Source of the DNA: Pythium myriotylum
Taxonomy: Eukaryota > Oomycota > Peronosporomycetes > Pythiales > Pythiaceae
Reading direction: 5' to 3'
NCBI GenBank assembly: GCA_023091665.1
Contig: JALJCQ010000014.1
Span: 1,984,001 to 2,048,000, forward strand
Length of the DNA stretch: 64,000 nt
Position numbers and translations under genes: made by a program. Position 1 is the first letter of the stretch, and every line of letters begins with the position of its first letter. Positions 27,319 through 60,692 of this stretch are shown here, one piece after another. The notes beneath the pieces are model-generated. The model did not search any database. It saw nothing but the letters and a program-made list of their open reading frames with translations, and was not told the origin of the DNA.

Positions 27319-27322
27319 AACC

Positions 27323-29158: not shown

Positions 29159-29195
29159 TCCGTCTGGTTCTGGTTTGAATCCAGTGCCACCCATC

Positions 29196-29349: not shown

Positions 29350-29376
29350 TCCCACCAACCAAGCGACCTTTCAACA

Positions 29377-35258: not shown

Positions 35259-35278
35259 AGCTCGGCAGTTGAAGCTCG
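35213..35278 (+). repeat. 3' LTR of P2, first 66 bp
   Basis: LTR positions 1-66 after P2's polypurine tract. The P5 insertion interrupts it at GCTCG (35274-35278). The remaining positions 62-359 are now at 45306-45603, with a second copy at 40323-40620 from the tandem duplication. Confidence 0.93.
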
Positions 35279-35637
35279 TGTTGAAGATGATGCGCCTCGA
35301 ACCCAGCGTCATCATTCCAGTTGAAGCTCGGCAGTTGAAGCTCGGCTGTAGAAGATTCTCCTGCAGAAGATTCTCCGTGGAAGATTCGACATGTGGAAGA
35401 TTCGACATGTGGAAGATTCTCCGTCTGGTTCTGGTTTGAATCCAGTGCCACCCATCGACTTCGTTGAAGTATCCACGAAGTCAGTTTATGTTTGCATATG
35501 TTTACGATAGGTAGGACATACATTTGATTATGGTAGCGTAGGACACACACAGACGGCTTAGAGGTAGCAGTAGCGAACTAAGTCCCGATCAATTCACTTT
35601 GCATTTTGCATCCCACCAACCAAGCGACCTTTCAACA
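35279..35637 (+). repeat. 5' LTR of P5 (359 bp)
   Basis: Standard LTR placed directly after the 66-bp P2 LTR start. The primer-binding site is 35638-35653. Confidence 0.95.
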
Positions 35638-35641
35638 GGTT

Positions 35642-38600: not shown

Positions 38601-40009
38601 GGTTCCTGCAGAAGTACGGCATCGACTTCGAAGAGACATTCGCACCCGTCGCCAAGTTCACGTCGATCCGCACCATCCTCAGCATCGCCGCTCGACACAA
38701 GCTCATGATCCATCAGATGGATGTCAAGACGGCGTTCCTGAACGGCAACCTCGACGAAGAAATCTACATGAAGCAGCCCGAAGGCTTCGTCGACCAGCGC
38801 CACCCCGACTACGTGTGCAAGCTCAAGCGCTCGCTCTACGGTCTCAAGCAGTCGCCCCGCATGTGGAACCAGACCATCGACGCCTTCATGCGCAAGGTCG
38901 GCTTCACCAAGTGCGAGATGGACCACTGCGTGTACGTCAAGCGGAGCGGCTCAGCGATGATCTTCGTGGTGATCTACGTCGACGACCTCATCCTCGCCTG
39001 CAACAGCCTCGAGTTGCTCACGGCGACCAAGCGTGCATTCAGCGAACGCTTCGAGATGTCCGACCTCGGCGAACTCAAGTACTGCCTCGGCATGGAAGTT
39101 GATCAAGACCCCAAGTCCGGCGACGTGACCATGCGGCAGACCAAGTTCCTGCAGTCGATCCTGACCAAGTTCGGCATGCAAGACTGCAAACCAGTGAGGA
39201 CCCCTCAAGACCCCGGACTCAAGCTGACCAAGGCCATGTGTGAAGGTGGTTGCAAGCACGAAGACACCATGAAGAACGTGCCGTACCGAAGTGCAGTCGG
39301 CGCACTGATGTACCTCATGGTCGGCACTCGACCAGACCTCGCAGCGGCAGTCGGCACACTCAGCCAGTTCGCCGCGGACCCGTGTCCAACACACTGGCAA
39401 GCTCTCAAGCGTGTGCTCCGGTATCTGCAAGCGACTCCGACCTACGGCCTGCAGTTCTCGGCATCGAACGACGGAAGACTGGTCGGCTACTCCGACGCCG
39501 ACTGGGCTGGCGACATCGAGTCACGTCGAAGCACCAGCGGCTACGTGTTCATGCTCAACGGCGGATGCATCAGCTGGCGCAGCAAGAAGCAGCGAACTGT
39601 CGCCCTCTCCTCGACCGAAGCAGAGTACATGGCTCTATCGGAAGCGATCCAAGAAGCCGTGTGGCTCAAGGCGTTCCTGTGCGAACTCGGCGAAGTTGCA
39701 AGCGACCAAGCGCTCACGGTGTACGAAGACAACCAAGGTGCGATCGCGTTGGCCAAGAACCCCGAGTTCCACAAGCGCACCAAGCACATCGACATTCGCT
39801 ATCACTTCGTTCGTGAGAAGGTCGAGGACGGTCAAGTGTCTCTCCAGTATTGCCCGACCCAAGACATGCTTGCCGACATCATGACCAAGCCGATCCCCAC
39901 TGTCCAGTTCGACGTGCTCCGCACCAAGCTTGGTGTTCAAGACGCAGTCGAGTCGAGGGGGAGTGTTGAAGATGATGCGCCTCGAACCCAGCGTCATCAT
40001 TCCAGTTGA
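35642..40009 (+). CDS. gag-pol: Gag-Pol polyprotein of P5
   Basis: Uninterrupted 1,455 codons; I found no amino-acid difference from the P4 protein on reading. All catalytic motifs are present. It has a full 5' LTR promoter and looks autonomous. Confidence 0.95.
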
Positions 40010-40322
40010 AGCTCGGCAGTTGAAGCTCGGCTGTAGAAGATTCTCCTGCAGAAGATTCTCCGTGGAAGATTCGACATGTGGAAGATTCGACATGTGGAAG
40101 ATTCTCCGTCTGGTTCTGGTTTGAATCCAGTGCCACCCATCGACTTCGTTGAAGTATCCACGAAGTCAGTTTATGTTTGCATATGTTTACGATAGGTAGG
40201 ACATACATTTGATTATGGTAGCGTAGGACACACACAGACGGCTTAGAGGTAGCAGTAGCGAACTAAGTCCCGATCAATTCACTTTGCATTTTGCATCCCA
40301 CCAACCAAGCGACCTTTCAACA
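39964..40322 (+). repeat. 3' LTR of P5 (359 bp)
   Basis: Follows the polypurine tract at 39955-39963 and ends at the TSD GCTCG. Confidence 0.95.
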
Positions 40323-40620
40323 GCTCGGCTGTAAAAGATTCTCCTGCAGAAGATTCTCCGTGGAAGATTCGACATGTGGAAGATTCGACATGTGGAAGAT
40401 TCTCCGTCTGGTTCTGGTTTGAATCCAGTGCCACCCATCGACTTCGTTGAAGTATCCACGAAGTCAGTTTATGTTTGCATATGTTTACGATAGGTAGGAC
40501 ATACATTTGATTATGGTAGCGTAGGACACACACAGACGGCTTAGAGGTAGCAGTAGCGAACTAAGTCCCGATCAATTCACTTTGCATTTTGCATCCCACC
40601 AACCAAGCGACCTTTCAACA
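40323..40620 (+). repeat. LTR positions 62-359 (298 bp), acting as 5' LTR of P6
   Basis: LTR remnant of P2 after P5, now followed directly by a primer-binding site (40621-40636) because of the tandem duplication. It lacks the first 61 bp of U3 but keeps the GAAGATTC cluster and the initiator-like site. One point change (A at 40334) alters the first GAAGATTC to AAAGATTC. Confidence 0.92.
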
Positions 40621-40624
40621 GGTT

Positions 40625-43600
40625 ATGAGCCCAAGCCCAGCCGACTCTGCCTCCACCGACTTCGCCTCCCCAGCCTTCGCCATGGATTCGACCACCCCAG
40701 CCCGCATCAACAAGTTCGACGGAACCAACTTCCACACATGGAAGTTCAAGATGCAGATGGTGCTCGAAGAACGCGACGTCTGGGAAGTTGTCTGTGGAGA
40801 GGTCAAACTCGAGCAGTGCCAGACCGACGCGGACCGAGCCCTCTTCAAGAAGAAGTCTCGCAAGGCGCTCGCGATGATCTGTCTCGCGATGGAAGACTCG
40901 CAGCTCCCGCTGGTTCGGTCGGCGAGTGGTGCGCAAGATGCATGGTCAAGACTGGAAGAACACTTCGAGAAGAAGAGCCTTGCCAACAAGCTCTTTCTTC
41001 GTCGTCGTTTCTTCACGACCATGATGGAAGAAGGTGACGATGTGCTCACGCACATCAACAAGCTCAAGACCCTGGCCGAGCAACTCGACGCAGTCGGCGC
41101 TCCGGTCAGCGAAGACGACTTGGTGATCACGCTTCTCGGCAGTCTCAGCGAGTCGTACCAGTTCCTCATCACGGCGTTGGAGTCGCGTGTCGACGCGCTC
41201 ACGTGGGAACTCGTGACGTCTCGGCTGCTCCATGAAGACATGAAGCGCAAGGAGCAAGGTGGCGACGGAGCCACGCTTGGCCAAGCGTTCATGACAAGTG
41301 ACGCGAAGCCCAAGGGCCGTGCAGTCAAGAAGACTGGCACGTGCAACTACTGCGGCAAGATCGGTCATTGGGCCGCGGAGTGCCACTCGCGTGTCAAGGA
41401 CAACGGCAACGGCAACGGCAACTCCGGCGGCAACGGCAACGGCAACGGAAACGGCAACCCTCGGCAACGGTTCCAGCGAGCCAACCTTGCGCGAGATGAA
41501 GACCCCGGCGAGTACCTGTTCTCGGTCGGGAAGACCCAAGGCAAGTCGAGTCAATCCACGGCGTGGTTGGTCGACTCGGGTGCGACTCAGCACATGTCGC
41601 GAACCAAGCAGTTCATGATGAACTACAAGAAGATTGACCCAGTCGACGTGCATCTGGCCGATGATGGCACGGTCCAAGCGGTTGGCGTGGGAGACATTCT
41701 CATGTCGATGAAGACTCCAAGCGGTGTCAAGAAGGGTTTGCTCACCAACGTGTGGCATATCCCCAAGCTCAGCCGCAACCTGTTCTCGGTCGGAAGATTC
41801 ACGGAGGACGTTGCTCCCGTGACGTTCGACAAGGACGGTTGCTTCGTCGTTCTCAAGGGCGCCAAGCGGACCATCGGCACTCGTATCGGCAAGGGTCTGT
41901 TCAAGCTCAACATGTCTCCAGTGTCGACTGAAGCAGCCCACGCCGCCAGTACAAGACGAGGTCGCGCCATGTCCAAGTCGTACCTGTGGCACCTCCGACT
42001 CGGTCACATCGGCTTCAGCGGTCTCGAAGCCATCGTCAAGAAGGACCTCGCCGACGGACTCGATATCGGGTCTGTGCAGGAGTGGGAGGTCTGTGAAGGC
42101 TGTGCACTCGGCAAGCTGACTCGCGTCAAGTTCCAGTCGGGCACGACCAAGCGGTCTGCGAATCTGCTTGACGTCGTGTACAGCGATGTGGCCGGCCCCA
42201 TGAAGACTCCGACTTTCGGTGGCATGAAGTACTTTGCCACCTTCACCGACGACAAGTCTCGACTGTGCAAGTTGTACCTGATGCGGTCCAAGGACGAAGT
42301 CTACGACAAGTTCGTCGAGTTCGTCAACTGGGCCGAGAACCAAACCGGTCGTCGAGTCAAGGTGCTTCGAACCGACGGCGGCGGCGAGTACCAGTCGGCC
42401 AAACTTGCCAAGTTCTGCCGCAAGCGTGGCATCGAGCACGACGTCACGCCGCCATACACGCCTCAGTTGAACGGTGTGGCGGAGCGCATGAACCGAACCA
42501 TCGGTGAGTGTGGTCGTTGCAAGCTCCACCATGCCAACTTGTCCGACGAGTACTGGGGCGAAGCCGTCATGACTGCAGTCGAAGTTCGCAACCGACTTCC
42601 GACCCGCGCTCAAGACTTGTACAAGTCGCCGTACGAAGAATGGTACGGGAAGAAGCCCTTGCTCGCCAACTTCAAGGTGTTCGGCTGCCATGCGTACGTC
42701 CACGTGCCGAAGGAGAAGCGGTCGAAGTTCGACGCCCGAGCCATCTTGTGTCGGTTCCTCGGCTACTCGGACCACGAGAAGGCGTATCGGTTTGAAGAAA
42801 TCGCAACCGGTCGGATCGTCATCAGTCGAGACGCGCAGTTCATGGAAGACACGTTCGACGACGGCAAGCGCGAAGAACCCTGGAGCAAGTCCGTCGAGTT
42901 CCGCGACGATGAAGATGATGAGGATCAGGATGAAGCAACCGACAACCAAGATGATGAAGACATGGGTGAGCAGCCAGCCTCACCAGCACCAAGTCAGCGC
43001 AGCTACGAGCGACCGGAGTGGCAACAGGGCCAGCGGTCGCAGCGTCCAGCAGCACCAGCATCGGCCCAGCAGCCGAATGTCGACTACGCACCAGGGTCCA
43101 AGCGCCACTCTCGCACGCACTCGCTCGAGAACCTGGCTGAACCGCCAGTTGAGAAGCGCTACGGACGGGTTGGTCGCACAAGTGGTGCGACTCCACCACC
43201 CACGCAAGGTCCAAGGACATCGCTCGAAGATCTGTCTGCACTGCTCACGTCGATCGAAGAGGAAGGCGTAGAAGATGAAGATGAAGAAGGCGAAGACGTG
43301 CAAGAACAAGGGGGAGAAGACCAAGACCACGAAGAGTTTGCTCTCGTCGTGAATTCAGGGGGAGAGTTGCCGACATCGTTCAAGTCGGCGATGGAATCCG
43401 ACGACGCCAGCAACTGGAAGGAAGCCTGCGACTCCGAGCTCGAGTCGCTCAAGAAGAACGAGACCTGGGACCTAGTCCCTTTGCCAGCCGGACGCAAGGC
43501 CATCACCAGCAAGTGGGTGTTCAAGGTCAAGGAAACCGCCGAAGGACTTGTCGAACGGTACAAGGCTCGACTCGTTGCCAAGGGGTTCCTGCAGAAGTAC

Positions 43601-44992
43601 GGCATCGACTTCGAAGAGACATTCGCACCCGTCGCCAAGTTCACGTCGATCCGCACCATCCTCAGCATCGCCGCTCGACACAAGCTCATGATCCATCAGA
43701 TGGATGTCAAGACGGCGTTCCTGAACGGCAACCTCGACGAAGAAATCTACATGAAGCAGCCCGAAGGCTTCGTCGACCAGCGCCACCCCGACTACGTGTG
43801 CAAGCTCAAGCGCTCGCTCTACGGTCTCAAGCAGTCGCCCCGCATGTGGAACCAGACCATCGACGCCTTCATGCGCAAGGTCGGCTTCACCAAGTGCGAG
43901 ATGGACCACTGCGTGTACGTCAAGCGGAGCGGCTCAGCGATGATCTTCGTGGTGATCTACGTCGACGACCTCATCCTCGCCTGCAACAGCCTCGAGTTGC
44001 TCACGGCGACCAAGCGTGCATTCAGCGAACGCTTCGAGATGTCCGACCTCGGCGAACTCAAGTACTGCCTCGGCATGGAAGTTGATCAAGACCCCAAGTC
44101 CGGCGACGTGACCATGCGGCAGACCAAGTTCCTGCAGTCGATCCTGACCAAGTTCGGCATGCAAGACTGCAAACCAGTGAGGACCCCTCAAGACCCCGGA
44201 CTCAAGCTGACCAAGGCCATGTGTGAAGGTGGTTGCAAGCACGAAGACACCATGAAGAACGTGCCGTACCGAAGTGCAGTCGGCGCACTGATGTACCTCA
44301 TGGTCGGCACTCGACCAGACCTCGCAGCGGCAGTCGGCACACTCAGCCAGTTCGCCGCGGACCCGTGTCCAACACACTGGCAAGCTCTCAAGCGTGTGCT
44401 CCGGTATCTGCAAGCGACTCCGACCTACGGCCTGCAGTTCTCGGCATCGAACGACGGAAGACTGGTCGGCTACTCCGACGCCGACTGGGCTGGCGACATC
44501 GAGTCACGTCGAAGCACCAGCGGCTACGTGTTCATGCTCAACGGCGGATGCATCAGCTGGCGCAGCAAGAAGCAGCGAACTGTCGCCCTCTCCTCGACCG
44601 AAGCAGAGTACATGGCTCTATCGGAAGCGATCCAAGAAGCCGTGTGGCTCAAGGCGTTCCTGTGCGAACTCGGCGAAGTTGCAAGCGACCAAGCGCTCAC
44701 GGTGTACGAAGACAACCAAGGTGCGATCGCGTTGGCCAAGAACCCCGAGTTCCACAAGCGCACCAAGCACATCGACATTCGCTATCACTTCGTTCGTGAG
44801 AAGGTCGAGGACGGTCAAGTGTCTCTCCAGTATTGCCCGACCCAAGACATGCTTGCCGACATCATGACCAAGCCGATCCCCACTGTCCAGTTCGACGTGC
44901 TCCGCACCAAGCTTGGTGTTCAAGACGCAGTCGAGTCGAGGGGGAGTGTTGAAGATGATGCGCCTCGAACCCAGCGTCATCATTCCAGTTGA
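40625..44992 (+). CDS. gag-pol: Gag-Pol polyprotein of P6 (duplicate of P5)
   Basis: Uninterrupted 1,455 codons, the tandem copy of the P5 ORF. Its 5' LTR is truncated at the U3 end, but promoter-proximal parts remain, so transcription is possible. It did not arise by transposition: no TSD, and it shares an LTR with the upstream unit. Confidence 0.94.
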
Positions 44993-45305
44993 AGCTCGGC
45001 AGTTGAAGCTCGGCTGTAGAAGATTCTCCTGCAGAAGATTCTCCGTGGAAGATTCGACATGTGGAAGATTCGACATGTGGAAGATTCTCCGTCTGGTTCT
45101 GGTTTGAATCCAGTGCCACCCATCGACTTCGTTGAAGTATCCACGAAGTCAGTTTATGTTTGCATATGTTTACGATAGGTAGGACATACATTTGATTATG
45201 GTAGCGTAGGACACACACAGACGGCTTAGAGGTAGCAGTAGCGAACTAAGTCCCGATCAATTCACTTTGCATTTTGCATCCCACCAACCAAGCGACCTTT
45301 CAACA
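44947..45305 (+). repeat. 3' LTR of P6 (359 bp)
   Basis: Duplicate of 39964-40322, again followed by GCTCG. Confidence 0.95.
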
Positions 45306-45603
45306 GCTCGGCTGTAGAAGATTCTCCTGCAGAAGATTCTCCGTGGAAGATTCGACATGTGGAAGATTCGACATGTGGAAGATTCTCCGTCTGGTTCTGG
45401 TTTGAATCCAGTGCCACCCATCGACTTCGTTGAAGTATCCACGAAGTCAGTTTATGTTTGCATATGTTTACGATAGGTAGGACATACATTTGATTATGGT
45501 AGCGTAGGACACACACAGACGGCTTAGAGGTAGCAGTAGCGAACTAAGTCCCGATCAATTCACTTTGCATTTTGCATCCCACCAACCAAGCGACCTTTCA
45601 ACA
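45306..45603 (+). repeat. 3' LTR of P2, positions 62-359
   Basis: End piece of the P2 3' LTR (its start is 35213-35278). It ends CTTTCAACA and is followed by P2's TSD CGGAG (45604-45608), which fixes the right border of the P2 block. Confidence 0.93.
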
Positions 45604-46405
45604 CGGAGTTGCCGTTGCCGTTGCCGTTGTCCTTGACACGCGAGTGGCACTCCGCGGCCCAATGACCGATCTTGCCGCAGTAGTTGCACGTGCCAGTCTT
45701 CTTGACTGCACGGCCCTTGGGCTTCGCGTCACTTGTCATGAACGCTTGGCCAAGCGTGGCTCCGTCGCCACCTTGCTCCTTGCGCTTCATGTCTTCGTGG
45801 AGCAGCCGAGACGTCACGAGTTCCCACGTGAGCGCGTCGACACGCGACTCCAACGCCGTGATGAGGAACTGGTACGACTCGCTGAGACTGCCGAGAAGCG
45901 TGATCACCAAGTCGTCTTCGCTGACCGGAGCGCCGACTGCGTCGAGTTGCTCGGCCAGGGTCTTGAGCTTGTTGATGTGCGTGAGCACATCGTCACCTTC
46001 TTCCATCATGGTCGTGAAGAAACGACGACGAAGAAAGAGCTTGTTGGCAAGGCTCTTCTTCTCGAAGTGTTCTTCCAGTCTTGACCATGCATCTTGCGCA
46101 CCACTCGCCGACCGAACCAGCGGGAGCTGCGAGTCTTCCATCGCGAGACAGATCATCGCGAGCGCCTTGCGAGACTTCTTCTTGAAGAGGGCTCGGTCCG
46201 CGTCGGTCTGGCACTGCTCGAGTTTGACCTCTCCACAGACAACTTCCCAGACGTCGCGTTCTTCGAGCACCATCTGCATCTTGAACTTCCATGTGTGGAA
46301 GTTGGTTCCGTCGAACTTGTTGATGCGGGCTGGGGTGGTCGAATCCATGGCGAAGGCTGGGGAGGCGAAGTCGGTGGAGGCAGAGTCGGCTGGGCTTGGG
46401 CTCAT
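45604..46405 (-). pseudogene. gag fragment of M4 (N-terminal piece)
   Basis: About 266 codons from the ATG at 46405 through Gag and the CCHC knuckle into the Gly-Asn repeat, where P2 was inserted. Bases 45604-45608 are the TSD copy. It continues at 15021-15316 on the other side of the 30-kb block. Confidence 0.92.
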
Positions 46406-46409
46406 AACC

Positions 46410-46768
46410 TGTTGGAAGGTCGCTTGGTTGGTGGGATGCAAAATGCAAAGTGAATTGATCGGGACTTAGTTCGCTGCTGCTACCTCTAAGCCGTCTGTGT
46501 GTGTCCTACGCTACCATAATCAAATGTATGTCCTACCTATCGTAAACATATGCAAACATAAACTGACTTCGTGGATACTTCAACGAAGTCGATGGGTGGC
46601 ACTGGATTCAAACCAGAACCAGACGGAGAATCTTCCACATGTCGAATCTTCCACATGTCGAATCTTCCACGGAGAATCTTCTGCAGGAGAATCTTCTACA
46701 GCCGAGCTTCAACTGCCGAGCTTCAACTGGAATGATGACGCTGGGTTCGAGGCGCATCATCTTCAACA
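46410..46768 (-). repeat. 5' LTR of M4 (359 bp), left border of the array
   Basis: On its left it adjoins M4's own primer-binding site. On its right it adjoins AGACG of the P7 LTR. The five LTRs inside the array share this right flank but not this left flank. Confidence 0.95.
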
Positions 46769-46859
46769 AGACGGCTTAGAGGTAGCAGTAGCGAACTAAG
46801 TCCCGATCAATTTACTTTGCATTTTGCATCCCACCAACCAAGCGACCTTCCAACAGGTT

Positions 46860-48422
46860 ATGAGCCCAAGCCCAACCGACTCTGCCTCCACCGACTTCGC
46901 CTCCCCAGCCTTCGCCATGGATTCGACCACCCCAGCCCGCATCAACAAGTTCGACGGAACCAACTTCCACACATGGAAGTTCAAGATGCAGATGGTGCTC
47001 GAAGAACGCGACGTCTGGGAAGTTGTCTGTGGAGAGGTCAAACTCGAGCAGTGCCAGACCGACGCGGACCGAGCCCTCTTCAAGAAGAAGTCTCGCAAGG
47101 CGCTCGCGATGATCTGTCTCGCGATGGAAGACTCGCAGCTCCCGCTGGTTCGGTCGGCGAGTGGTGCGCAAGATGCATGGTCAAGACTGGAAGAACACTT
47201 CGAGAAGAAGAGCCTTGCCAACAAGCTCTTTCTTCGTCGTCGTTTCTTCACGACCATGATGGAAGAAGGTGACGATGTGCTCACGCACATCAACAAGCTC
47301 AAGACCCTGGCCGAGCAACTCGACGCAGTCGGCGCTCCGGTCAGCGAAGACGACTTGGTGATCACGCTTCTCGGCAGTCTCAGCGAGTCGTACCAGTTCC
47401 TCATCACGGCGTTGGAGTCGCGTGTCGACGCGCTCACGTGGGAACTCGTGACGTCTCGGCTGCTCCACGAAGACATGAAGCGCAAGGAGCAAGGTGGCGA
47501 CGGAGCCACGCTTGGCCAAGCGTTCATGACAAGTGACGCGAAGCCCAAGGGCCGTGCAGTCAAGAAGACTGGCACGTGCAACTACTGCGGCAAGATCGGT
47601 CATTGGGCCGCGGAGTGCCACTCGCGTGTCAAGGACAACGGCAACGGCAACGGCAACTCCGGCGGCAACGGCAACGGAAACGGCAACGGCAACCCTCGGC
47701 AACGGTTCCAGCGAGCGAACCTTGCGCGAGATGAAGACCCCGGCGAGTACCTGTTCTCGGTCGGGAAGACCCAAGGCAAGTCGAGTCAATCCACGGCGTG
47801 GTTGGTCGACTCGGGTGCGACTCAGCACATGTCGCGAACCAAGCAGTTCATGATGAACTACAAGAAGATTGACCCAGTCGACGTGCATCTGGCCGATGAT
47901 GGCACGGTCCAAGCAGTTGGCGTGGGAGACATTCTCATGTCGATGAAGACTCCAAGCGGTGTCAAGAAGGGTTTGCTCACCAACGTGTGGCATATCCCCA
48001 AGCTCAGCCGCAACCTGTTCTCGGTCGGAAGATTCACGGAGGACGTTGCTCCCGTGACGTTCGACAAGGGCGGTTGCTTCGTCGTTCTCAAGGGCGCCAA
48101 GCGGACCATCGGCACTCGAATCGGCAAGGGTCTGTTCAAGCTCAACATGTCTCCAGTGTCGACTGAAGCAGCCCACGCCGCCAGTACAAGACGAGGTCGC
48201 GCCATGTCCAAGTCGTACCTGTGGCACCTCCGACTCGGTCACATCGGCTTCAGCGGTCTCGAAGCCATCGTCAAGAAGGACCTCGCCGACGGACTCGACA
48301 TTGGGTCTGTGCAAGAGTGGGAGGTCTGTGAAGGCTGTGCACTCGGCAAGCTGACTCGCGTCTGTTGGAAGGTCGCTTGGTTGGTGGGATGCAAAATGCA
48401 AAGTGAATTGATCGGGACTTAG
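46860..48422 (+). pseudogene. Array unit 1: truncated Gag-protease ORF
   Basis: 501 native codons (Gag, CCHC, protease DSG, integrase HHCC) and then 19 codons read from the antisense LTR to a stop, 520 aa in all. No integrase catalytic core, RT or RNase H. It could still make Gag and protease if transcribed. Private change SPTDSAS near the start. Confidence 0.85.
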
Positions 48423-48721
48423 TTCGCTGCTGCTACCTCTAAGCCGTCTGTGTGTGTCCTACGCTACCATAATCAAATGTATGTCCTACCTATCGTAAAC
48501 ATATGCAAACATAAACTGACTTCGTGGATACTTCAACGAAGTCGATGGGTGGCACTGGATTCAAACCAGAACCAGACGGAGAATCTTCCACATGTCGAAT
48601 CTTCCACATGTCGAATCTTCCACGGAGAATCTTCTGCAGGAGAATCTTCTACAGCCGAGCTTCAACTGCCGAGCTTCAACTGGAATGATGACGCTGGGTT
48701 CGAGGCGCATCATCTTCAACA
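48363..48721 (-). repeat. Recombinant LTR between array units 1 and 2
   Basis: Full LTR with non-matching flanks GCGTC (left) and AGACG (right), the signature of a crossover between the M4 5' LTR and the M6 3' LTR. Confidence 0.9.
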
Positions 48722-48812
48722 AGACGGCTTAGAGGTAGCAGTAGCGAACTAAGTCCCGATCAATTTACTTTGCATTTTGCATCCCACCAACCAAGCGACC
48801 TTCCAACAGGTT

Positions 48813-50375
48813 ATGAGCCCAAGCCCAGCCGACTCTGCCTCCACCGACTTCGCCTCCCCAGCCTTCGCCATGGATTCGACCACCCCAGCCCGCATCAACA
48901 AGTTCGACGGAACCAACTTCCACACATGGAAGTTCAAGATGCAGATGGTGCTCGAAGAACGCGACGTCTGGGAAGTTGTCTGTGGAGAGGTCAAACTCGA
49001 GCAGTGCCAGACCGACGCGGACCGAGCCCTCTTCAAGAAGAAGTCTCGCAAGGCGCTCGCGATGATCTGTCTCGCGATGGAAGACTCGCAGCTCCCGCTG
49101 GTTCGGTCGGCGAGTGGTGCGCAAGATGCATGGTCAAGACTGGAAGAACACTTCGAGAAGAAGAGCCTTGCCAACAAGCTCTTTCTTCGTCGTCGTTTCT
49201 TCACGACCATGATGGAAGAAGGTGACGATGTGCTCACGCACATCAACAAGCTCAAGACCCTGGCCGAGCAACTCGACGCAGTCGGCGCTCCGGTCAGCGA
49301 AGACGACTTGGTGATCACGCTTCTCGGCAGTCTCAGCGAGTCGTACCAGTTCCTCATCACGGCGTTGGAGTCGCGTGTCGACGCGCTCACGTGGGAACTC
49401 GTGACGTCTCGGCTGCTCCACGAAGACATGAAGCGCAAGGAGCAAGGTGGCGACGGAGCCACGCTTGGCCAAGCGTTCATGACAAGTGACGCGAAGCCCA
49501 AGGGCCGTGCAGTCAAGAAGACTGGCACGTGCAACTACTGCGGCAAGATCGGTCATTGGGCCGCGGAGTGCCACTCGCGTGTCAAGGACAACGGCAACGG
49601 CAACGGCAACTCCGGCGGCAACGGCAACGGAAACGGCAACGGCAACCCTCGGCAACGGTTCCAGCGAGCGAACCTTGCGCGAGATGAAGACCCCGGCGAG
49701 TACCTGTTCTCGGTCGGGAAGACCCAAGGCAAGTCGAGTCAATCCACGGCGTGGTTGGTCGACTCGGGTGCGACTCAGCACATGTCGCGAACCAAGCAGT
49801 TCATGATGAACTACAAGAAGATTGACCCAGTCGACGTGCATCTGGCCGATGATGGCACGGTCCAAGCAGTTGGCGTGGGAGACATTCTCATGTCGATGAA
49901 GACTCCAAGCGGTGTCAAGAAGGGTTTGCTCACCAACGTGTGGCATATCCCCAAGCTCAGCCGCAACCTGTTCTCGGTCGGAAGATTCACGGAGGACGTT
50001 GCTCCCGTGACGTTCGACAAGGGCGGTTGCTTCGTCGTTCTCAAGGGCGCCAAGCGGACCATCGGCACTCGAATCGGCAAGGGTCTGTTCAAGCTCAACA
50101 TGTCTCCAGTGTCGACTGAAGCAGCCCACGCCGCCAGTACAAGACGAGGTCGCGCCATGTCCAAGTCGTACCTGTGGCACCTCCGACTCGGTCACATCGG
50201 CTTCAGCGGTCTCGAAGCCATCGTCAAGAAGGACCTCGCCGACGGACTCGACATTGGGTCTGTGCAAGAGTGGGAGGTCTGTGAAGGCTGTGCACTCGGC
50301 AAGCTGACTCGCGTCTGTTGGAAGGTCGCTTGGTTGGTGGGATGCAAAATGCAAAGTGAATTGATCGGGACTTAG
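48813..50375 (+). pseudogene. Array unit 2: truncated Gag-protease ORF
   Basis: Same 520-codon structure as unit 1, without its SPTDSAS change. It carries the DKGGC variant. Confidence 0.85.
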
Positions 50376-50674
50376 TTCGCTGCTGCTACCTCTAAGCCGT
50401 CTGTGTGTGTCCTACGCTACCATAATCAAATGTATGTCCTACCTATCGTAAACATATGCAAACATAAACTGACTTCGTGGATACTTCAACGAAGTCGATG
50501 GGTGGCACTGGATTCAAACCAGAACCAGACGGAGAATCTTCCACATGTCGAATCTTCCACATGTCGAATCTTCCACGGAGAATCTTCTGCAGGAGAATCT
50601 TCTACAGCCGAGCTTCAACTGCCGAGCTTCAACTGGAATGATGACGCTGGGTTCGAGGCGCATCATCTTCAACA
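50316..50674 (-). repeat. Recombinant LTR between array units 2 and 3
   Basis: Flanks GCGTC and AGACG, as for the other internal array LTRs. Confidence 0.9.
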
Positions 50675-50765
50675 AGACGGCTTAGAGGTAGCAGTAGCGA
50701 ACTAAGTCCCGATCAATTTACTTTGCATTTTGCATCCCACCAACCAAGCGACCTTCCAACAGGTT

Positions 50766-52328
50766 ATGAGCCCAAGCCCAGCCGACTCTGCCTCCACCGA
50801 CTTCGCCTCCCCAGCCTTCGCCATGGATTCGACCACCCCAGCCCGCATCAACAAGTTCGACGGAACCAACTTCCACACATGGAAGTTCAAGATGCAGATG
50901 GTGCTCGAAGAACGCGACGTCTGGGAAGTTGTCTGTGGAGAGGTCAAACTCGAGCAGTGCCAGACCGACGCGGACCGAGCCCTCTTCAAGAAGAAGTCTC
51001 GCAAGGCGCTCGCGATGATCTGTCTCGCGATGGAAGACTCGCAGCTCCCGCTGGTTCGGTCGGCGAGTGGTGCGCAAGATGCATGGTCAAGACTGGAAGA
51101 ACACTTCGAGAAGAAGAGCCTTGCCAACAAGCTCTTTCTTCGTCGTCGTTTCTTCACGACCATGATGGAAGAAGGTGACGATGTGCTCACGCACATCAAC
51201 AAGCTCAAGACCCTGGCCGAGCAACTCGACGCAGTCGGCGCTCCGGTCAGCGAAGACGACTTGGTGATCACGCTTCTCGGCAGTCTCAGCGAGTCGTACC
51301 AGTTCCTCATCACGGCGTTGGAGTCGCGTGTCGACGCGCTCACGTGGGAACTCGTGACGTCTCGGCTGCTCCACGAAGACATGAAGCGCAAGGAGCAAGG
51401 TGGCGACGGAGCCACGCTTGGCCAAGCGTTCATGACAAGTGACGCGAAGCCCAAGGGCCGTGCAGTCAAGAAGACTGGCACGTGCAACTACTGCGGCAAG
51501 ATCGGTCATTGGGCCGCGGAGTGCCACTCGCGTGTCAAGGACAACGGCAACGGCAACGGCAACTCCGGCGGCAACGGCAACGGAAACGGCAACGGCAACC
51601 CTCGGCAACGGTTCCAGCGAGCGAACCTTGCGCGAGATGAAGACCCCGGCGAGTACCTGTTCTCGGTCGGGAAGACCCAAGGCAAGTCGAGTCAATCCAC
51701 GGCGTGGTTGGTCGACTCGGGTGCGACTCAGCACATGTCGCGAACCAAGCAGTTCATGATGAACTACAAGAAGATTGACCCAGTCGACGTGCATCTGGCC
51801 GATGATGGCACGGTCCAAGCAGTTGGCGTGGGAGACATTCTCATGTCGATGAAGACTCCAAGCGGTGTCAAGAAGGGTTTGCTCACCAACGTGTGGCATA
51901 TCCCCAAGCTCAGCCGCAACCTGTTCTCGGTCGGAAGATTCACGGAGGACGTTGCTCCCGTGACGTTCGACAAGGGCGGTTGCTTCGTCGTTCTCAAGGG
52001 CGCCAAGCGGACCATCGGCACTCGAATCGGCAAGGGTCTGTTCAAGCTCAACATGTCTCCAGTGTCGACTGAAGCAGCCCACGCCGCCAGTACAAGACGA
52101 GGTCGCGCCATGTCCAAGTCGTACCTGTGGCACCTCCGACTCGGTCACATCGGCTTCAGCGGTCTCGAAGCCATCGTCAAGAAGGACCTCGCCGACGGAC
52201 TCGACATTGGGTCTGTGCAAGAGTGGGAGGTCTGTGAAGGCTGTGCACTCGGCAAGCTGACTCGCGTCTGTTGGAAGGTCGCTTGGTTGGTGGGATGCAA
52301 AATGCAAAGTGAATTGATCGGGACTTAG
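50766..52328 (+). pseudogene. Array unit 3: truncated Gag-protease ORF
   Basis: 520 codons. I saw no difference from unit 2, which suggests that these two are among the youngest duplicates. Confidence 0.85.
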
Positions 52329-52627
52329 TTCGCTGCTGCTACCTCTAAGCCGTCTGTGTGTGTCCTACGCTACCATAATCAAATGTATGTCCTACCTATC
52401 GTAAACATATGCAAACATAAACTGACTTCGTGGATACTTCAACGAAGTCGATGGGTGGCACTGGATTCAAACCAGAACCAGACGGAGAATCTTCCACATG
52501 TCGAATCTTCCACATGTCGAATCTTCCACGGAGAATCTTCTGCAGGAGAATCTTCTACAGCCGAGCTTCAACTGCCGAGCTTCAACTGGAATGATGACGC
52601 TGGGTTCGAGGCGCATCATCTTCAACA
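52269..52627 (-). repeat. Recombinant LTR between array units 3 and 4
   Basis: Flanks GCGTC and AGACG. Confidence 0.9.
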
Positions 52628-52718
52628 AGACGGCTTAGAGGTAGCAGTAGCGAACTAAGTCCCGATCAATTTACTTTGCATTTTGCATCCCACCAACCAA
52701 GCGACCTTCCAACAGGTT

Positions 52719-54287
52719 ATGAGCCCAAGCCCAGCCGACTCTGCCTCCACCGACTTCGCCTCCCCAGCCTTCGCCATGGATTCGACCACCCCAGCCCGCA
52801 TCAACAAGTTCGACGGAACCAACTTCCACACATGGAAGTTCAAGATGCAGATGGTGCTCGAAGAACGCGACGTCTGGGAAGTTGTCTGTGGAGAGGTCAA
52901 ACTCGAGCAGTGCCAGACCGACGCGGACCGAGCCCTCTTCAAGAAGAAGTCTCGCAAGGCGCTCGCGATGATCTGTCTCGCGATGGAAGACTCGCAGCTC
53001 CCGCTGGTTCGGTCGGCGAGTGGTGCGCAAGATGCATGGTCAAGACTGGAAGAACACTTCGAGAAGAAGAGCCTTGCCAACAAGCTCTTTCTTCGTCGTC
53101 GTTTCTTCACGACCATGATGGAAGAAGGTGACGATGTGCTCACGCACATCAACAAGCTCAAGACCCTGGCCGAGCAACTCGACGCAGTCGGCGCTCCGGT
53201 CAGCGAAGACGACTTGGTGATCACGCTTCTCGGCAGTCTCAGCGAGTCGTACCAGTTCCTCATCACGGCGTTGGAGTCGCGTGTCGACGCGCTCACGTGG
53301 GAACTCGTGACGTCTCGGCTGCTCCACGAAGACATGAAGCGCAAGGAGCAAGGTGGCGACGGAGCCACGCTTGGCCAAGCGTTCATGACAAGTGACGCGA
53401 AGCCCAAGGGCCGTGCAGTCAAGAAGACTGGCACGTGCAACTACTGCGGCAAGATCGGTCATTGGGCCGCGGAGTGCCACTCGCGTGTCAAGGACAACGG
53501 CAACGGCAACGGCAACGGCAACTCCGGCGGCAACGGCAACGGAAACGGCAACGGCAACCCTCGGCAACGGTTCCAGCGAGCGAACCTTGCGCGAGATGAA
53601 GACCCCGGCGAGTACCTGTTCTCGGTCGGGAAGACCCAAGGCAAGTCGAGTCAATCCACGGCGTGGTTGGTCGACTCGGGTGCGACTCAGCACATGTCGC
53701 GAACCAAGCAGTTCATGATGAACTACAAGAAGATTGACCCAGTCGACGTGCATCTGGCCGATGATGGCACGGTCCAAGCAGTTGGCGTGGGAGACATTCT
53801 CATGTCGATGAAGACTCCAAGCGGTGTCAAGAAGGGTTTGCTCACCAACGTGTGGCATATCCCCAAGCTCAGCCGCAACCTGTTCTCGGTCGGAAGATTC
53901 ACGGAGGACGTTGCTCCCGTGACGTTCGACAAGGGCGGTTGCTTCGTCGTTCTCAAGGGCGCCAAGCGGACCATCGGCACTCGAATCGGCAAGGGTCTGT
54001 TCAAGCTCAACATGTCTCCAGTGTCGACTGAAGCAGCCCACGCCGCCAGTACAAGACGAGGTCGCGCCATGTCCAAGTCGTACCTGTGGCACCTCCGACT
54101 CGGTCACATCGGCTTCAGCGGTCTCGAAGCCATCGTCAAGAAGGACCTCGCCGACGGACTCGACATTGGGTCTGTGCAAGAGTGGGAGGTCTGTGAAGGC
54201 TGTGCACTCGGCAAGCTGACTCGCGTCTGTTGGAAGGTCGCTTGGTTGGTGGGATGCAAAATGCAAAGTGAATTGATCGGGACTTAG
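52719..54287 (+). pseudogene. Array unit 4: truncated Gag-protease ORF (+2 codons)
   Basis: 522 codons. The Gly-Asn repeat after the zinc knuckle has one extra Gly-Asn pair (6-bp GGCAAC expansion), shared with unit 5. The frame is kept. Confidence 0.85.
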
Positions 54288-54586
54288 TTCGCTGCTGCTA
54301 CCTCTAAGCCGTCTGTGTGTGTCCTACGCTACCATAATCAAATGTATGTCCTACCTATCGTAAACATATGCAAACATAAACTGACTTCGTGGATACTTCA
54401 ACGAAGTCGATGGGTGGCACTGGATTCAAACCAGAACCAGACGGAGAATCTTCCACATGTCGAATCTTCCACATGTCGAATCTTCCACGGAGAATCTTCT
54501 GCAGGAGAATCTTCTACAGCCGAGCTTCAACTGCCGAGCTTCAACTGGAATGATGACGCTGGGTTCGAGGCGCATCATCTTCAACA
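54228..54586 (-). repeat. Recombinant LTR between array units 4 and 5
   Basis: Flanks GCGTC and AGACG. Confidence 0.9.
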
Positions 54587-54677
54587 AGACGGCTTAGAGG
54601 TAGCAGTAGCGAACTAAGTCCCGATCAATTTACTTTGCATTTTGCATCCCACCAACCAAGCGACCTTCCAACAGGTT

Positions 54678-56246
54678 ATGAGCCCAAGCCCAGCCGACTC
54701 TGCCTCCACCGACTTCGCCTCCCCAGCCTTCGCCATGGATTCGACCACCCCAGCCCGCATCAACAAGTTCGACGGAACCAACTTCCACACATGGAAGTTC
54801 AAGATGCAGATGGTGCTCGAAGAACGCGACGTCTGGGAAGTTGTCTGTGGAGAGGTCAAACTCGAGCAGTGCCAGACCGACGCGGACCGAGCCCTCTTCA
54901 AGAAGAAGTCTCGCAAGGCGCTCGCGATGATCTGTCTCGCGATGGAAGACTCGCAGCTCCCGCTGGTTCGGTCGGCGAGTGGTGCGCAAGATGCATGGTC
55001 AAGACTGGAAGAACACTTCGAGAAGAAGAGCCTTGCCAACAAGCTCTTTCTTCGTCGTCGTTTCTTCACGACCATGATGGAAGAAGGTGACGATGTGCTC
55101 ACGCACATCAACAAGCTCAAGACCCTGGCCGAGCAACTCGACGCAGTCGGCGCTCCGGTCAGCGAAGACGACTTGGTGATCACGCTTCTCGGCAGTCTCA
55201 GCGAGTCGTACCAGTTCCTCATCACGGCGTTGGAGTCGCGTGTCGACGCGCTCACGTGGGAACTCGTGACGTCTCGGCTGCTCCACGAAGACATGAAGCG
55301 CAAGGAGCAAGGTGGCGACGGAGCCACGCTTGGCCAAGCGTTCATGACAAGTGACGCGAAGCCCAAGGGCCGTGCAGTCAAGAAGACTGGCACGTGCAAC
55401 TACTGCGGCAAGATCGGTCATTGGGCCGCGGAGTGCCACTCGCGTGTCAAGGACAACGGCAACGGCAACGGCAACGGCAACTCCGGCGGCAACGGCAACG
55501 GAAACGGCAACGGCAACCCTCGGCAACGGTTCCAGCGAGCGAACCTTGCGCGAGATGAAGACCCCGGCGAGTACCTGTTCTCGGTCGGGAAGACCCAAGG
55601 CAAGTCGAGTCAATCCACGGCGTGGTTGGTCGACTCGGGTGCGACTCAGCACATGTCGCGAACCAAGCAGTTCATGATGAACTACAAGAAGATTGACCCA
55701 GTCGACGTGCATCTGGCCGATGATGGCACGGTCCAAGCAGTTGGCGTGGGAGACATTCTCATGTCGATGAAGACTCCAAGCGGTGTCAAGAAGGGTTTGC
55801 TCACCAACGTGTGGCATATCCCCAAGCTCAGCCGCAACCTGTTCTCGGTCGGAAGATTCACGGAGGACGTTGCTCCCGTGACGTTCGACAAGGGCGGTTG
55901 CTTCGTCGTTCTCAAGGGCGCCAAGCGGACCATCGGCACTCGAATCGGCAAGGGTCTGTTCAAGCTCAACATGTCTCCAGTGTCGACTGAAGCAGCCCAC
56001 GCCGCCAGTACAAGACGAGGTCGCGCCATGTCCAAGTCGTACCTGTGGCACCTCCGACTCGGTCACATCGGCTTCAGCGGTCTCGAAGCCATCGTCAAGA
56101 AGGACCTCGCCGACGGACTCGACATTGGGTCTGTGCAAGAGTGGGAGGTCTGTGAAGGCTGTGCACTCGGCAAGCTGACTCGCGTCTGTTGGAAGGTCGC
56201 TTGGTTGGTGGGATGCAAAATGCAAAGTGAATTGATCGGGACTTAG
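54678..56246 (+). pseudogene. Array unit 5: truncated Gag-protease ORF (+2 codons)
   Basis: 522 codons with the same 6-bp expansion as unit 4, so the two descend from one duplicated unit. Confidence 0.85.
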
Positions 56247-56545
56247 TTCGCTGCTGCTACCTCTAAGCCGTCTGTGTGTGTCCTACGCTACCATAATCAA
56301 ATGTATGTCCTACCTATCGTAAACATATGCAAACATAAACTGACTTCGTGGATACTTCAACGAAGTCGATGGGTGGCACTGGATTCAAACCAGAACCAGA
56401 CGGAGAATCTTCCACATGTCGAATCTTCCACATGTCGAATCTTCCACGGAGAATCTTCTGCAGGAGAATCTTCTACAGCCGAGCTTCAACTGCCGAGCTT
56501 CAACTGGAATGATGACGCTGGGTTCGAGGCGCATCATCTTCAACA
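56187..56545 (-). repeat. Recombinant LTR between array units 5 and 6
   Basis: Flanks GCGTC and AGACG. Confidence 0.9.
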
Positions 56546-56636
56546 AGACGGCTTAGAGGTAGCAGTAGCGAACTAAGTCCCGATCAATTTACTTTGCATT
56601 TTGCATCCCACCAACCAAGCGACCTTCCAACAGGTT

Positions 56637-58199
56637 ATGAGCCCAAGCCCAGCCGACTCTGCCTCCACCGACTTCGCCTCCCCAGCCTTCGCCATGGATT
56701 CGACCACCCCAGCCCGCATCAACAAGTTCGACGGAACCAACTTCCACACATGGAAGTTCAAGATGCAGATGGTGCTCGAAGAACGCGACGTCTGGGAAGT
56801 TGTCTGTGGAGAGGTCAAACTCGAGCAGTGCCAGACCGACGCGGACCGAGCCCTCTTCAAGAAGAAGTCTCGCAAGGCGCTCGCGATGATCTGTCTCGCG
56901 ATGGAAGACTCGCAGCTCCCGCTGGTTCGGTCGGCGAGTGGTGCGCAAGATGCATGGTCAAGACTGGAAGAACACTTCGAGAAGAAGAGCCTTGCCAACA
57001 AGCTCTTTCTTCGTCGTCGTTTCTTCACGACCATGATGGAAGAAGGTGACGATGTGCTCACGCACATCAACAAGCTCAAGACCCTGGCCGAGCAACTCGA
57101 CGCAGTCGGCGCTCCGGTCAGCGAAGACGACTTGGTGATCACGCTTCTCGGCAGTCTCAGCGAGTCGTACCAGTTCCTCATCACGGCGTTGGAGTCGCGT
57201 GTCGACGCGCTCACGTGGGAACTCGTGACGTCTCGGCTGCTCCACGAAGACATGAAGCGCAAGGAGCAAGGTGGCGACGGAGCCACGCTTGGCCAAGCGT
57301 TCATGACAAGTGACGCGAAGCCCAAGGGCCGTGCAGTCAAGAAGACTGGCACGTGCAACTACTGCGGCAAGATCGGTCATTGGGCCGCGGAGTGCCACTC
57401 GCGTGTCAAGGACAACGGCAACGGCAACGGCAACTCCGGCGGCAACGGCAACGGAAACGGCAACGGCAACCCTCGGCAACGGTTCCAGCGAGCGAACCTT
57501 GCGCGAGATGAAGACCCCGGCGAGTACCTGTTCTCGGTCGGGAAGACCCAAGGCAAGTCGAGTCAATCCACGGCGTGGTTGGTCGACTCGGGTGCGACTC
57601 AGCACATGTCGCGAACCAAGCAGTTCATGATGAACTACAAGAAGATTGACCCAGTCGACGTGCATCTGGCCGATGATGGCACGGTCCAAGCAGTTGGCGT
57701 GGGAGACATTCTCATGTCGATGAAGACTCCAAGCGGTGTCAAGAAGGGTTTGCTCACCAACGTGTGGCATATCCCCAAGCTCAGCCGCAACCTGTTCTCG
57801 GTCGGAAGATTCACGGAGGACGTTGCTCCCGTGACGTTCGACAAGGACGGTTGCTTCGTCGTTCTCAAGGGCGCCAAGCGGACCATCGGCACTCGAATCG
57901 GCAAGGGTCTGTTCAAGCTCAACATGTCTCCAGTGTCGACTGAAGCAGCCCACGCCGCCAGTACAAGACGAGGTCGCGCCATGTCCAAGTCGTACCTGTG
58001 GCACCTCCGACTCGGTCACATCGGCTTCAGCGGTCTCGAAGCCATCGTCAAGAAGGACCTCGCCGACGGACTCGACATTGGGTCTGTGCAAGAGTGGGAG
58101 GTCTGTGAAGGCTGTGCACTCGGCAAGCTGACTCGCGTCTGTTGGAAGGTCGCTTGGTTGGTGGGATGCAAAATGCAAAGTGAATTGATCGGGACTTAG
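56637..58199 (+). pseudogene. Array unit 6: truncated Gag-protease ORF
   Basis: 520 codons. It keeps the ancestral DKDGC, unlike units 1-5, and abuts the true 3' LTR of M6, so it lies next to the ancestral right border of the array. Confidence 0.85.
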
Positions 58200-58498
58200 T
58201 TCGCTGCTGCTACCTCTAAGCCGTCTGTGTGTGTCCTACGCTACCATAATCAAATGTATGTCCTACCTATCGTAAACATATGCAAACATAAACTGACTTC
58301 GTGGATACTTCAACGAAGTCGATGGGTGGCACTGGATTCAAACCAGAACCAGACGGAGAATCTTCCACATGTCGAATCTTCCACATGTCGAATCTTCCAC
58401 GGAGAATCTTCTGCAGGAGAATCTTCTACAGCCGAGCTTCAACTGCCGAGCTTCAACTGGAATGATGACGCTGGGTTCGAGGCGCATCATCTTCAACA
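58140..58498 (-). repeat. 3' LTR of M6 (359 bp), right border of the array
   Basis: Left flank GCGTC (P7), right flank M6's own polypurine tract. Together with 46410-46768 it marks the two parental LTRs of the array recombination. Confidence 0.94.
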
Positions 58499-60692
58499 CT
58501 CCCCCTCGACTCGACTGCGTCTTGAACACCAAGCTTGGTGCGGAGCACGTCGAACTGGACAGTGGGGATCGGCTTGGTCATGATGTCGGCAAGCATGTCT
58601 TGGGTCGGGCAATACTGGAGAGACACTTGGCCGTCCTCGACCTTCTCACGAACGAAGTGGTAGCGAATGTCGATGTGCTTGGTGCGCTTGTGGAACTCGG
58701 GGTTCTTGGCCAACGCGATCGCACCTTGGTTGTCTTCGTACACCGTGAGCGCTTGGTCGCTTGCAACTTCGCCGAGTTCGCACAGGAACGCCTTGAGCCA
58801 CACGGCTTCTTGGATCGCTTCCGATAGAGCCATGTACTCTGCTTCGGTCGAGGAGAGGGCGACAGTTCGCTGCTTCTTGCTGCGCCAGCTGATGCATCCG
58901 CCGTTGAGCATGAACACGTAGCCGCTGGTGCTTCGACGTGACTCGATGTCGCCAGCCCAGTCGGCGTCGGAGTAGCCGACCAGTCTTCCGTCGTTCGGTG
59001 CCGAGAACTGCAGGCCGTAGGTCGGAGTCGCTTGCAGATACCGGAGCACACGCTTGAGAGCTTGCCAATGTGTTGGACACGGGTCCGCGGCGAACTGGCT
59101 GAGTGTGCCGACTGCCGCTGCGAGGTCTGGTCGAGTGCCGACCATGAGGTACATCAGTGCGCCGACTGCACTTCGGTACGGCACGTTCTTCATGGTGTCT
59201 TCGTGCTTGCAACCACCTTCACACATGGCCTTGGTCAGCTTGAGTCCGGGGTCTTGAGGGGTCCTCACTGGTTTGCAGTCTTGCATGCCGAACTTGGTCA
59301 GGATCGACTGCAGGAACTTGGTCTGCCGCATGGTCACGTCGCCGGACTTGGGGTCTTGATCAACTTCCATGCCGAGGCAGTACTTGAGTTCGCCGAGGTC
59401 GGACATCTCGAAGCGTTCGCTGAGTGCACGCTTGGTCGCCGTGAGCAACTCGAGGCTGTTGCAGGCGAGGATGAGGTCGTCGACGTAGATCACCACGAAG
59501 ATCATCGCTGAGCCGCTCCGCTTGACGTACACGCAGTGGTCCATCTCGCACTTGGTGAAGCCGACCTTGCGCATGAAGGCGTCGATGGTCTGGTTCCACA
59601 TGCGTGGCGACTGCTTGAGACCGTAGAGCGAGCGCTTGAGCTTGCACACGTAGTCGGGGTGGCGCTGGTCGACGAAGCCTTCGGGTTGCTTCATGTAGAT
59701 TTCTTCGTCGAGGTTGCCGTTCAGGAACGCCGTCTTGACATCCATCTGATGGATCATGAGCTTGTGTCGAGCGGCGATGCTGAGGATGGTTCGGATCGAC
59801 GTGAACTTGGCGACGGGTGCGAACGTCTCTTCGAAGTCGATGCCGTACTTCTGCAGGAACCCCTTGGCAACGAGTCGAGCCTTGTACCGTTCGACGAGTC
59901 CTTCGGCGGTTTCCTTGACCTTGAACACCCACTTGCTGGTGATGGCCTTGCGTCCGGCTGGCAAAGGGACTAGGTCCCAGGTCTCGTTCTTCTTGAGCGA
60001 CTCGAGCTCGGAGTCGCAGGCTTCCTTCCAGTTGCTGGCGTCGTCGGATTCCATCGCCGACTTGAACGATGTCGGCAACTCTCCCCCTGAATTCACGACG
60101 AGAGCAAACTCTTCGTAATCTTGGTCTTCTCCCCCTTGTTCTTGCACGTCTTCGCCTTCTTCGTCTTCATCTTCTACGCCTTCCTCTTCGATCGACGTGA
60201 GCAGTGCAGACAGATCTTCGAGCGATGTCCTTGAACCTTGCGTGGGTGGTGGAGTCGCACCACTTGTGCGACCAACCCGTCCGTAGCGCTTCTCAACTGG
60301 CGGTTCAGCCAGGTTCTCGAGCGAGCGCGTGCGAGAGTGGCGCTTGGACCCTGGTGCGTAGTCGACATTCGGCTGCTGGGCCGATGCTGGTGCTGCTGGA
60401 CGCTGCGACCGCTGGCCCTGTTGCCACTCCGGTCGCTCGTAGCTGCGCTGACTTGGTGCTGGTGAGGCTGGCTGCTCACCCATGTCTTCATCATCTTGGT
60501 TGTCGGTTGCTTCATCTTGATCTTCATCATCTTCATCGCCGCGGAACTCGACGGACTTGCTCCAGGGTTCTTCGCGCATGCCATCGTCGAATGTGTCTTC
60601 CATGAACTGCGCGTCTCGACTGATGACGATCCGGCCGGTTGCGATTTCTTCAAACCGATACGCTTTCTCGTGGTCCGAGTAGCCGAGGAACC
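58453..60692 (-). pseudogene. pol fragment of M6: integrase C-terminus, RT, RNase H
   Basis: About 746 open codons from [13 protein letters not shown] to the stop in the LTR. RT YVDD and RNase H YSDADWAG are intact. Private changes include DGMREEP (others DGKREEP) and SAPNDGR (others SASNDGR). Confidence 0.92.

Follow-up and report, generated by a model that had tools for sequence, protein, structure and literature searches.

The 64,000-nucleotide window analysed here (C14:1984001-2048000, from contig JALJCQ010000014.1 of Pythium myriotylum, in a genome of 58.7 Mb and 55 contigs) consisted almost wholly of one Ty1-copia retrotransposon family with copies nested within each other, and it contained a tandem array of six units (array 1) built from a retrotransposon slice and a long terminal repeat (LTR) of opposite orientation. 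Array 1 very probably arose by recombination between the LTRs of two insertions, M4 and M6, that had entered one older element, P7. The analysis was made on the assembled sequence; coordinates without a contig label are those of the window, and values outside 1-64000 lie beyond it on C14. The family element measured 5,044 bp, with 359-bp LTRs that had TG..CA ends, and with target duplications of 5 bp.

An initial annotation had placed a six-copy array at 46769..58498, and these limits were confirmed, the first spacer starting at 46769 and the last LTR ending at 58498. The six head-to-tail units each comprised a 359-bp minus-strand LTR and a plus-strand slice of P7 (LTR positions 273-359 and internal positions 1-1506), and were in order 1953, 1953, 1953, 1959, 1959 and 1953 bp long. 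All seven minus-strand LTRs from 46410 to 58498 were identical. The array and the adjoining parts of its parental insertions were as follows:

45604..46409, minus strand: M4 internal 1-805, cut on the left by element X, which has CGGAG on both sides
46410..46768, minus strand: right end of M4 with its 5' LTR, followed on the right by AGACG (P7 LTR 273-277)
46769..48362, plus strand: P7 spacer of unit 1 (LTR 273-359 and internal 1-1506), with gag, zinc knuckle and GAG-pre-integrase in an open frame
48363..48721, minus strand: internal solo LTR 1, left GCGTC, right AGACG
50316..50674, minus strand: internal solo LTR 2, left GCGTC, right AGACG
52269..52627, minus strand: internal solo LTR 3, left GCGTC, right AGACG
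54228..54586, minus strand: internal solo LTR 4, left GCGTC, right AGACG
56187..56545, minus strand: internal solo LTR 5, left GCGTC, right AGACG
56546..58139, plus strand: P7 spacer of unit 6, with the putative ancestral A retained where units 1-5 have G
58140..58498, minus strand: left end of M6 with its 3' LTR, bordered on the left by GCGTC (P7 internal 1502-1506)
58499..60692, minus strand: M6 from internal 4325 to 2132, interrupted on the right by a plus-strand element

As annotated, M4 and M6 were minus-strand elements inside the plus-strand P7, about 1.6 kb apart, with their outer LTRs forming direct repeats. The leftmost LTR of the array was that of M4, with internal sequence on its left and AGACG on its right, and the rightmost was that of M6, with GCGTC on its left and internal sequence on its right. 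In a reference copy of the family, AGACG occupied LTR 273-277, and GCGTC occupied internal 1502-1506 and continued directly into AAGTTTC. The hybrid flanks claimed for the internal LTRs were borne out at every one, with GCGTC on the left (5/5) and AGACG on the right (5/5); matching target duplications, which had been named as the contrary evidence to look for, surrounded none of them. A chance origin of array 1 is not realistic.

The arrangement would follow if an older plus-strand P7 had taken two minus-strand insertions of the young family 1.6 kb apart, M4 entering its 5' LTR at 273-277 and M6 its internal region at 1502-1506. The 5' LTR of M4 and the 3' LTR of M6 would then have formed 359-bp direct repeats enclosing 1.6 kb of P7, and unequal homologous recombination between them would have duplicated the unit of LTR plus P7 slice. 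Every new LTR would have eased further rounds, up to six units, and in the other cases read, nests of elements in the same orientation would have given further arrays by the same process. Recombination between LTRs is favoured because it predicts the hybrid flanks, which separate insertions, template switching and the insertion of complementary DNA (cDNA) do not.

Three sites varied among the six units: an A private to unit 1, where other alignments had G (37/37); a G in units 1-5, giving the reading DKGGC, where unit 6 had A; and 6 extra bp (GGCAAC) in units 4-5. This made four unit types (U1; U2=U3; U4=U5; U6). At the DKGGC site, A was present in 41/41 alignments outside array 1 in the DNA compared, which include near-identical units of a second array, array 2, and are not independent. 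Because of these alignments, the G of units 1-5 is judged to be derived, and since it was found in 0/41 outside, it would most simply have arisen after the first duplication, with its unit spreading thereafter; the shared change thus orders part of the growth. The four unit types argue against expansion of a single unit by the assembler, although an identical pair may still represent one unit counted twice. If each step was one pairwise exchange, six units would need at least three rounds, because such an exchange at most doubles the number of units.

If M4 inserted at AGACG, its far end should read as P7 LTR sequence running to ACACACAGACG and followed by TGTTGGAAGGTC, which was searched as ACACACAGACG followed by TGTTGGAAGG. 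The whole genome held one match at up to two mismatches (C14:2053326-2053348, minus strand; window 69337/69338), and this single junction fits the far end of M4 with AGACG. The piece found there comprised internal 1091-4325 and an LTR that differed from the other LTR of M4 at 1/359 positions, and it started at GACTC, matching the GAGTC by the right end of element M_b (15021). M4 was probably split in two by an inversion, judging from these junctions. The plus-strand element that neighbours the far-end piece (60693-65735) had unlike flanks, GAACC and GACTC, which is what an inversion via two oppositely oriented copies would give. The stretches 12694-15020 and 60693 to 69614 form a candidate for this inversion, in which M_b probably recombined with an oppositely oriented element and so parted the halves of M4. 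To the left of array 1 were the following features:

15021..15316, minus strand: probable further piece of M4, internal ~800-1096, between M_b (left, GAGTC) and X (right, CGGAG)
15317..45603, plus strand: element X including nested elements, inside a minus-strand element that is probably M4, CGGAG on both sides
35213..45603, plus strand: 3' LTR of X, split at LTR 62-66 (GCTCG) by element Y, which is tandemly duplicated (Y1 35279-40322, Y2 body 40622-45305)

A second junction of an LTR with AGACGG lay at -36859. The minus-strand element there differed from M4 at 4/806 internal and 1/359 LTR positions, and its P7-like slice differed from unit 6 at 12/1593, inside the range of the other slice copies compared, which differed from 7/1593 upwards. 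The copy may stem from an independent insertion at that site, or may be an early duplicate predating M6. The family LTR was hit at nearly one spot (272-277) at 46769 and -36859 (AGACG twice) and at C23:37594 (CAGAC, one base off), for which target preference or old duplication is possible. A match to the spacer-LTR junction at C4:945213 was considered as a second copy of the M6 insertion and rejected, because that insertion had entered internal 1498 and had another flank.

The duplication of Y is a second product of LTR-LTR recombination in the window. Y, inserted in the 3' LTR of X, was present twice with identical internal regions (0/4325 differences); GCTCG flanked Y1 on both sides and Y2 on its right, and the host X kept CGGAG on both sides. 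This pattern is the one expected from recombination between the 5' LTR of Y and the remaining piece of the X LTR. At 20867-25974, a full element followed a 64-bp copy of its own LTR start, with GGCGC flanking the whole; the extra 64 bp may be a duplication or the remnant of a nested copy.

Further arrays of the family lay outside the window:

C4:966428-975163: two-unit array, units of 998 and 1,065 bp, LTR and internal 1-670, then an inner element
C4:896020-912199, minus strand: second C4 array, LTR and internal 1-3074, spacings 3467, 3469, 3499 and 3437
C14:2054049-2087135 (window 70049-103135) and C23:2606-32548: array 2, to the right of the window, in the terminal part of C14 and the first part of C23

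On its junctions, the two-unit array on C4 is the clearest single-step case of array birth. GTTCA stood to the left of its second and third LTRs and to the right of the 3' LTR of the inner element, and the outer element resumed after that LTR and GTTCA. The second LTR and the third (the 5' LTR of the inner element) were identical at 395 bp, and the first, that of the outer element, was 328 bp long. The second C4 array was read over 10 kb (896001-906000) and followed by junction spacing over the rest; its LTR held extra copies of a 16-bp minisatellite.

The units of array 2 comprised an LTR and internal 1-2961 in one orientation and were 3,333 or 3,347 bp long. Their junction occurred 21 times in the genome at up to one mismatch: ten times and once inverted on C14, and ten times on C23, from 2606. 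The array extended off the end of C14 and resumed at the start of C23, and these contig ends probably represent a single locus seen from its two sides. Spacings were 3347, 3333, 3333, 3333, 3347, 3333, 3333, 3333 and 3350 on C14 and 3333, 3347, 3333, 3333, 3333, 3347, 3333, 3227 and 3334 on C23. One 14-bp repeat in the LTR accounted for the difference between 3347 and 3333 (from sequence on C14, from spacing on C23), and the LTR length type recurred every four units. Among the eight complete C14 units compared, both of 3347 bp were identical, as were five of the six of 3333 bp, the sixth being one base off; edge units (V0 on C14, W8-W10 on C23) were more divergent. The last unit continued past 2961 into a full element, with CAGAC and LTR 272-359 on its right. 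At the left edge (69338-70048) lay an inverted, internally deleted stub of array-2 type, joined to P7 LTR 1-277. A simple reading of P7 as an array-2 unit was rejected, as its spacer was only 98.0% identical to the array-2 units, with indels.

Array 2 and the C4 arrays were thus in the same orientation but truncated at internal 2961, 3074 or 670, and the Y duplication came nearest to a tandem with shared LTRs, in which LTR and complete internal region share one orientation and meet at native boundaries on both sides; array 1 is no such tandem, its LTR being antiparallel to the slice. Like satellites, array 1 (six units) and array 2 (ten junctions on either contig) were homogeneous head-to-tail tandems. 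Satellite arrays are heterochromatic and long, at hundreds of copies or more, and with six units in array 1 and about 20 seen in array 2, these are therefore satellite-like only. We also evaluated 5'-LTR junctions, of which the genome held 395; among the first 100, the 96 on C1, C3, C4 and C6 were examined, and those on C1 and C4 were shuffled. Neighbouring equal spacings on the same strand were more frequent than chance predicts on both shuffled contigs; they numbered five on C1 (shuffle mean 0.67, 1/2000 shuffles as high) and four on C4 (shuffle mean 0.18, 0/2000 as high), and no run of two equal spacings occurred among the junctions examined on C3 and C6. The runs on C1, known by spacing only, had spacings of ~4.69-4.75 kb and of 4.25 kb.

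Several points weigh against this account of array 1 and its relatives. The 6-bp site varied in length elsewhere (among 38 other alignments, 20 were at +6, 15 at 0 and 3 at other lengths), which makes GGCAAC a weak marker of growth; of the stepwise growth that the initial annotation had read from shared changes, the part based on DKGGC in units 1-5 held, but the part based on GGCAAC in units 4-5, although the insertion was seen, is weaker evidence than first claimed. The link to the far end of M4 runs through a junction that is not unique: GAGTC/GACTC (internal 1092-1096) had one right-hand side (15021) and three left-hand sides (65736, -17915 and -15947), so that the stretch itself was copied or hit repeatedly, and the AGACG end is reached from 65736 only. 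In principle the copy at -36859 could be the owner of the far end, but it was unbroken through internal 1-2769 and is therefore a poor fit to a piece cut at 1091. A right end of M6 beside P7 internal 1507 had no match in the genome at up to two mismatches, which makes the target duplication of M6 a putative one, and the right half of P7 was not located. The 5' LTR piece of P7 at 69338-69614 adjoins an array-2-type junction (internal 2961), which the proposed steps leave unexplained. The right flank of array 2 was CAGAC, not the CCAAG predicted by a simple nest; a later LTR-LTR deletion would explain this and is a candidate step. Given the near-identity of the C14 units, assembly could have distorted both the number of array-2 units and their four-unit period. 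On checking, the M4 link and the array-2 period lost strength and the two-unit case on C4 gained it.

The initial annotation had proposed unequal crossing-over between the LTRs of M4 and M6. Recombination between these LTRs is supported by the hybrid flanks and the far junction of M4; we infer reciprocal sister-chromatid exchange as the route, which sequence does not separate from a route via a circle. In the latter, the nest and the LTR homology would be the same, but a 1,953-bp circle of LTR and spacer would have been excised, amplified by rolling circle or not, and re-inserted into LTRs. The same junctions and identical LTRs are predicted, and the identical pairs U2=U3 and U4=U5 would suit it; the G shared by units 1-5 and the 6 bp shared by units 4-5 form a nested pattern that comes more naturally from several small steps, and we consider the circle unlikely, though by far the most plausible of the alternatives. 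Multiplication of one or a few true units by the assembler is improbable. Repeats of 99.6-100% identity are hard to assemble, C14 stops inside array 2, the first array-2 junction on C23 lies 2.6 kb from its start, and most C14 array-2 units are identical, as are U2 and U3, and U4 and U5; yet each of the four unit types of array 1 has its own combination of variants, and several arrays with different junctions exist.

Solo LTRs are generally common, and near-identical insertion sites recur in this family (LTR 272-277), as would be needed if five separate minus-strand elements had entered at the same spots and each had collapsed to a solo LTR. Matching flanks would then be expected around each one, whereas 5/5 had GCGTC to the left and AGACG to the right, and the P7 slice is itself repeated, which makes this origin scarcely credible. 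An origin during retrotransposition, whether by switching of templates, by concatenation of cDNA or by recombination of cDNA with an LTR already in place, is very improbable too. Such tandems are described in plants, where an origin from a single insertion is favoured (PMC11899658; here and below, statements on cited papers draw on parts of each), and an origin during retrotransposition could account for the ~4.69-kb runs on C1. The LTR of array 1, however, runs antiparallel to the slice, and each of its two flanks is the target site of a different insertion. P7 target DNA, not the element's own internal ends, borders the minus-strand LTRs, and one RNA template is insufficient for this arrangement. 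Among the 50 matches listed for the spacer-LTR query (40 of 1109 candidates scored), the whole query was found only in array 1 and, with a different insertion site, on C4.

The family encoded a single 1467-aa open reading frame with the Pfam order Retrotran_gag_2, zinc knuckle, gag_pre-integrs, rve and RVT_2, and so had the Ty1-copia features of a single frame that runs from gag through integrase to reverse transcriptase, together with LTRs and a 5-bp duplication. In the four complete copies compared, three LTR pairs were identical and one had 2/359 differences, which marks them as young copies. In the best 120 of 7963 matches, the polyprotein was 76-85% identical to those of Globisporangium and Pythium and 69-79% identical to those of Phytophthora; one match in this set, at 74%, was labelled Aspergillus oryzae. 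For cox2, the best named matches were Phytophthora litchii at 89% and Paralagenidium karlingii at 84%, below one further entry at 93%, and together with the polyprotein matches they identify the host as an oomycete. Separately, the four equally scoring cox2 matches on C2:21938-110663 formed two inverted pairs ~72 kb apart, as though a mitochondrial genome that has a large inverted repeat had been assembled in duplicate.

The 96 junctions formed one main cluster per contig, at 1.896-2.108 Mb on C1 (43/44), 1.330-1.401 Mb on C3 (9/10), 0.839-1.027 Mb on C4 (33/33) and 1.318-1.393 Mb on C6 (9/9); C1 and C3 each had a single outlier. Centromeres rich in the Copia-like element CoLT have been described in Phytophthora sojae (PMC7082073), and Copia-like-rich centromeres in other oomycetes (PMC11139960). 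Because of the clustering together with these reports, the clusters are suggested as candidate centromeres. The systems are alike in being oomycete Ty1-copia elements of ~5 kb with one long open reading frame and clustered copies. They differ in that the word tandem does not occur in the main text on P. sojae (PMC7082073).

One genome thus held several stages, with two units on C4, six in array 1 and a larger array of 3.3-kb units on C14 and C23. We tentatively postulate that retrotransposon clusters may act as satellite nurseries, in which arrays are seeded again and again by nests of a single young Ty1-copia family, these arrays form a series of stages, and a retrotransposon centromere might become a satellite centromere by LTR recombination alone. 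This would suggest an oomycete route from retrotransposon-based to satellite-based centromeres (PMC7082073, PMC11139960). More speculatively, as the centromere part also is, the LTR of each array 1 unit faces antisense to gag and could feed silencing RNA. Most inferences on how satellites start come from old arrays that have lost their first junctions. In the present case the parental junctions can still be read, and the antiparallel geometry counts against explanations by reverse transcription of one template. With several array sizes in one genome, copy-number variation and homogenisation could be measured directly in isolates.

That satellites can be born when the LTRs of neighbouring or nested elements exchange unequally is already an established model (PMC12628747, PMC3648361); what is new in this genome is a unit both antiparallel and chimeric, together with arrays of such a range of sizes, and no title describing an array of the array 1 type was found in the literature searched, mostly the top-ranked titles of longer lists. 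In the model of McGurk and Barbash (2018; summarised in review PMC12628747), a satellite is born by double insertion of a transposable element and unequal exchange between LTRs, and array 1 agrees with it in the close insertion of one family, the LTR homology, the unequal exchange and the tandem units. It differs in that its insertions are antiparallel within a third element, giving a chimeric unit of minus-strand LTR and plus-strand gag slice, and in that its hybrid 5-bp flanks record both parents. Satellite DNA is also known in an oomycete from PpSat1 and PpSat2 of Phytophthora parasitica (PMC7290008), for which no nested-retrotransposon origin was described in 12 of 24 places in that paper. 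The tandem LTR-retrotransposon structures with shared LTRs in plants (PMC11899658) and the Cassandra arrays (PMC7215508) are similar to array 2 and the Y duplication, and perhaps to the C1 runs. In contrast, array 1 does not have the LTR-internal-LTR order of one element and needs two independent insertions. CRM1TR and CRM4TR likewise are tandem repeats from centromeric LTR retrotransposons, in maize, with nested insertions postulated as a source (PMC3648361). Those elements belong to Ty3/gypsy and array 1 to Ty1-copia. Illegitimate recombination is discussed for their initiating junction and their nest is inferred, whereas the junctions of array 1 survive.

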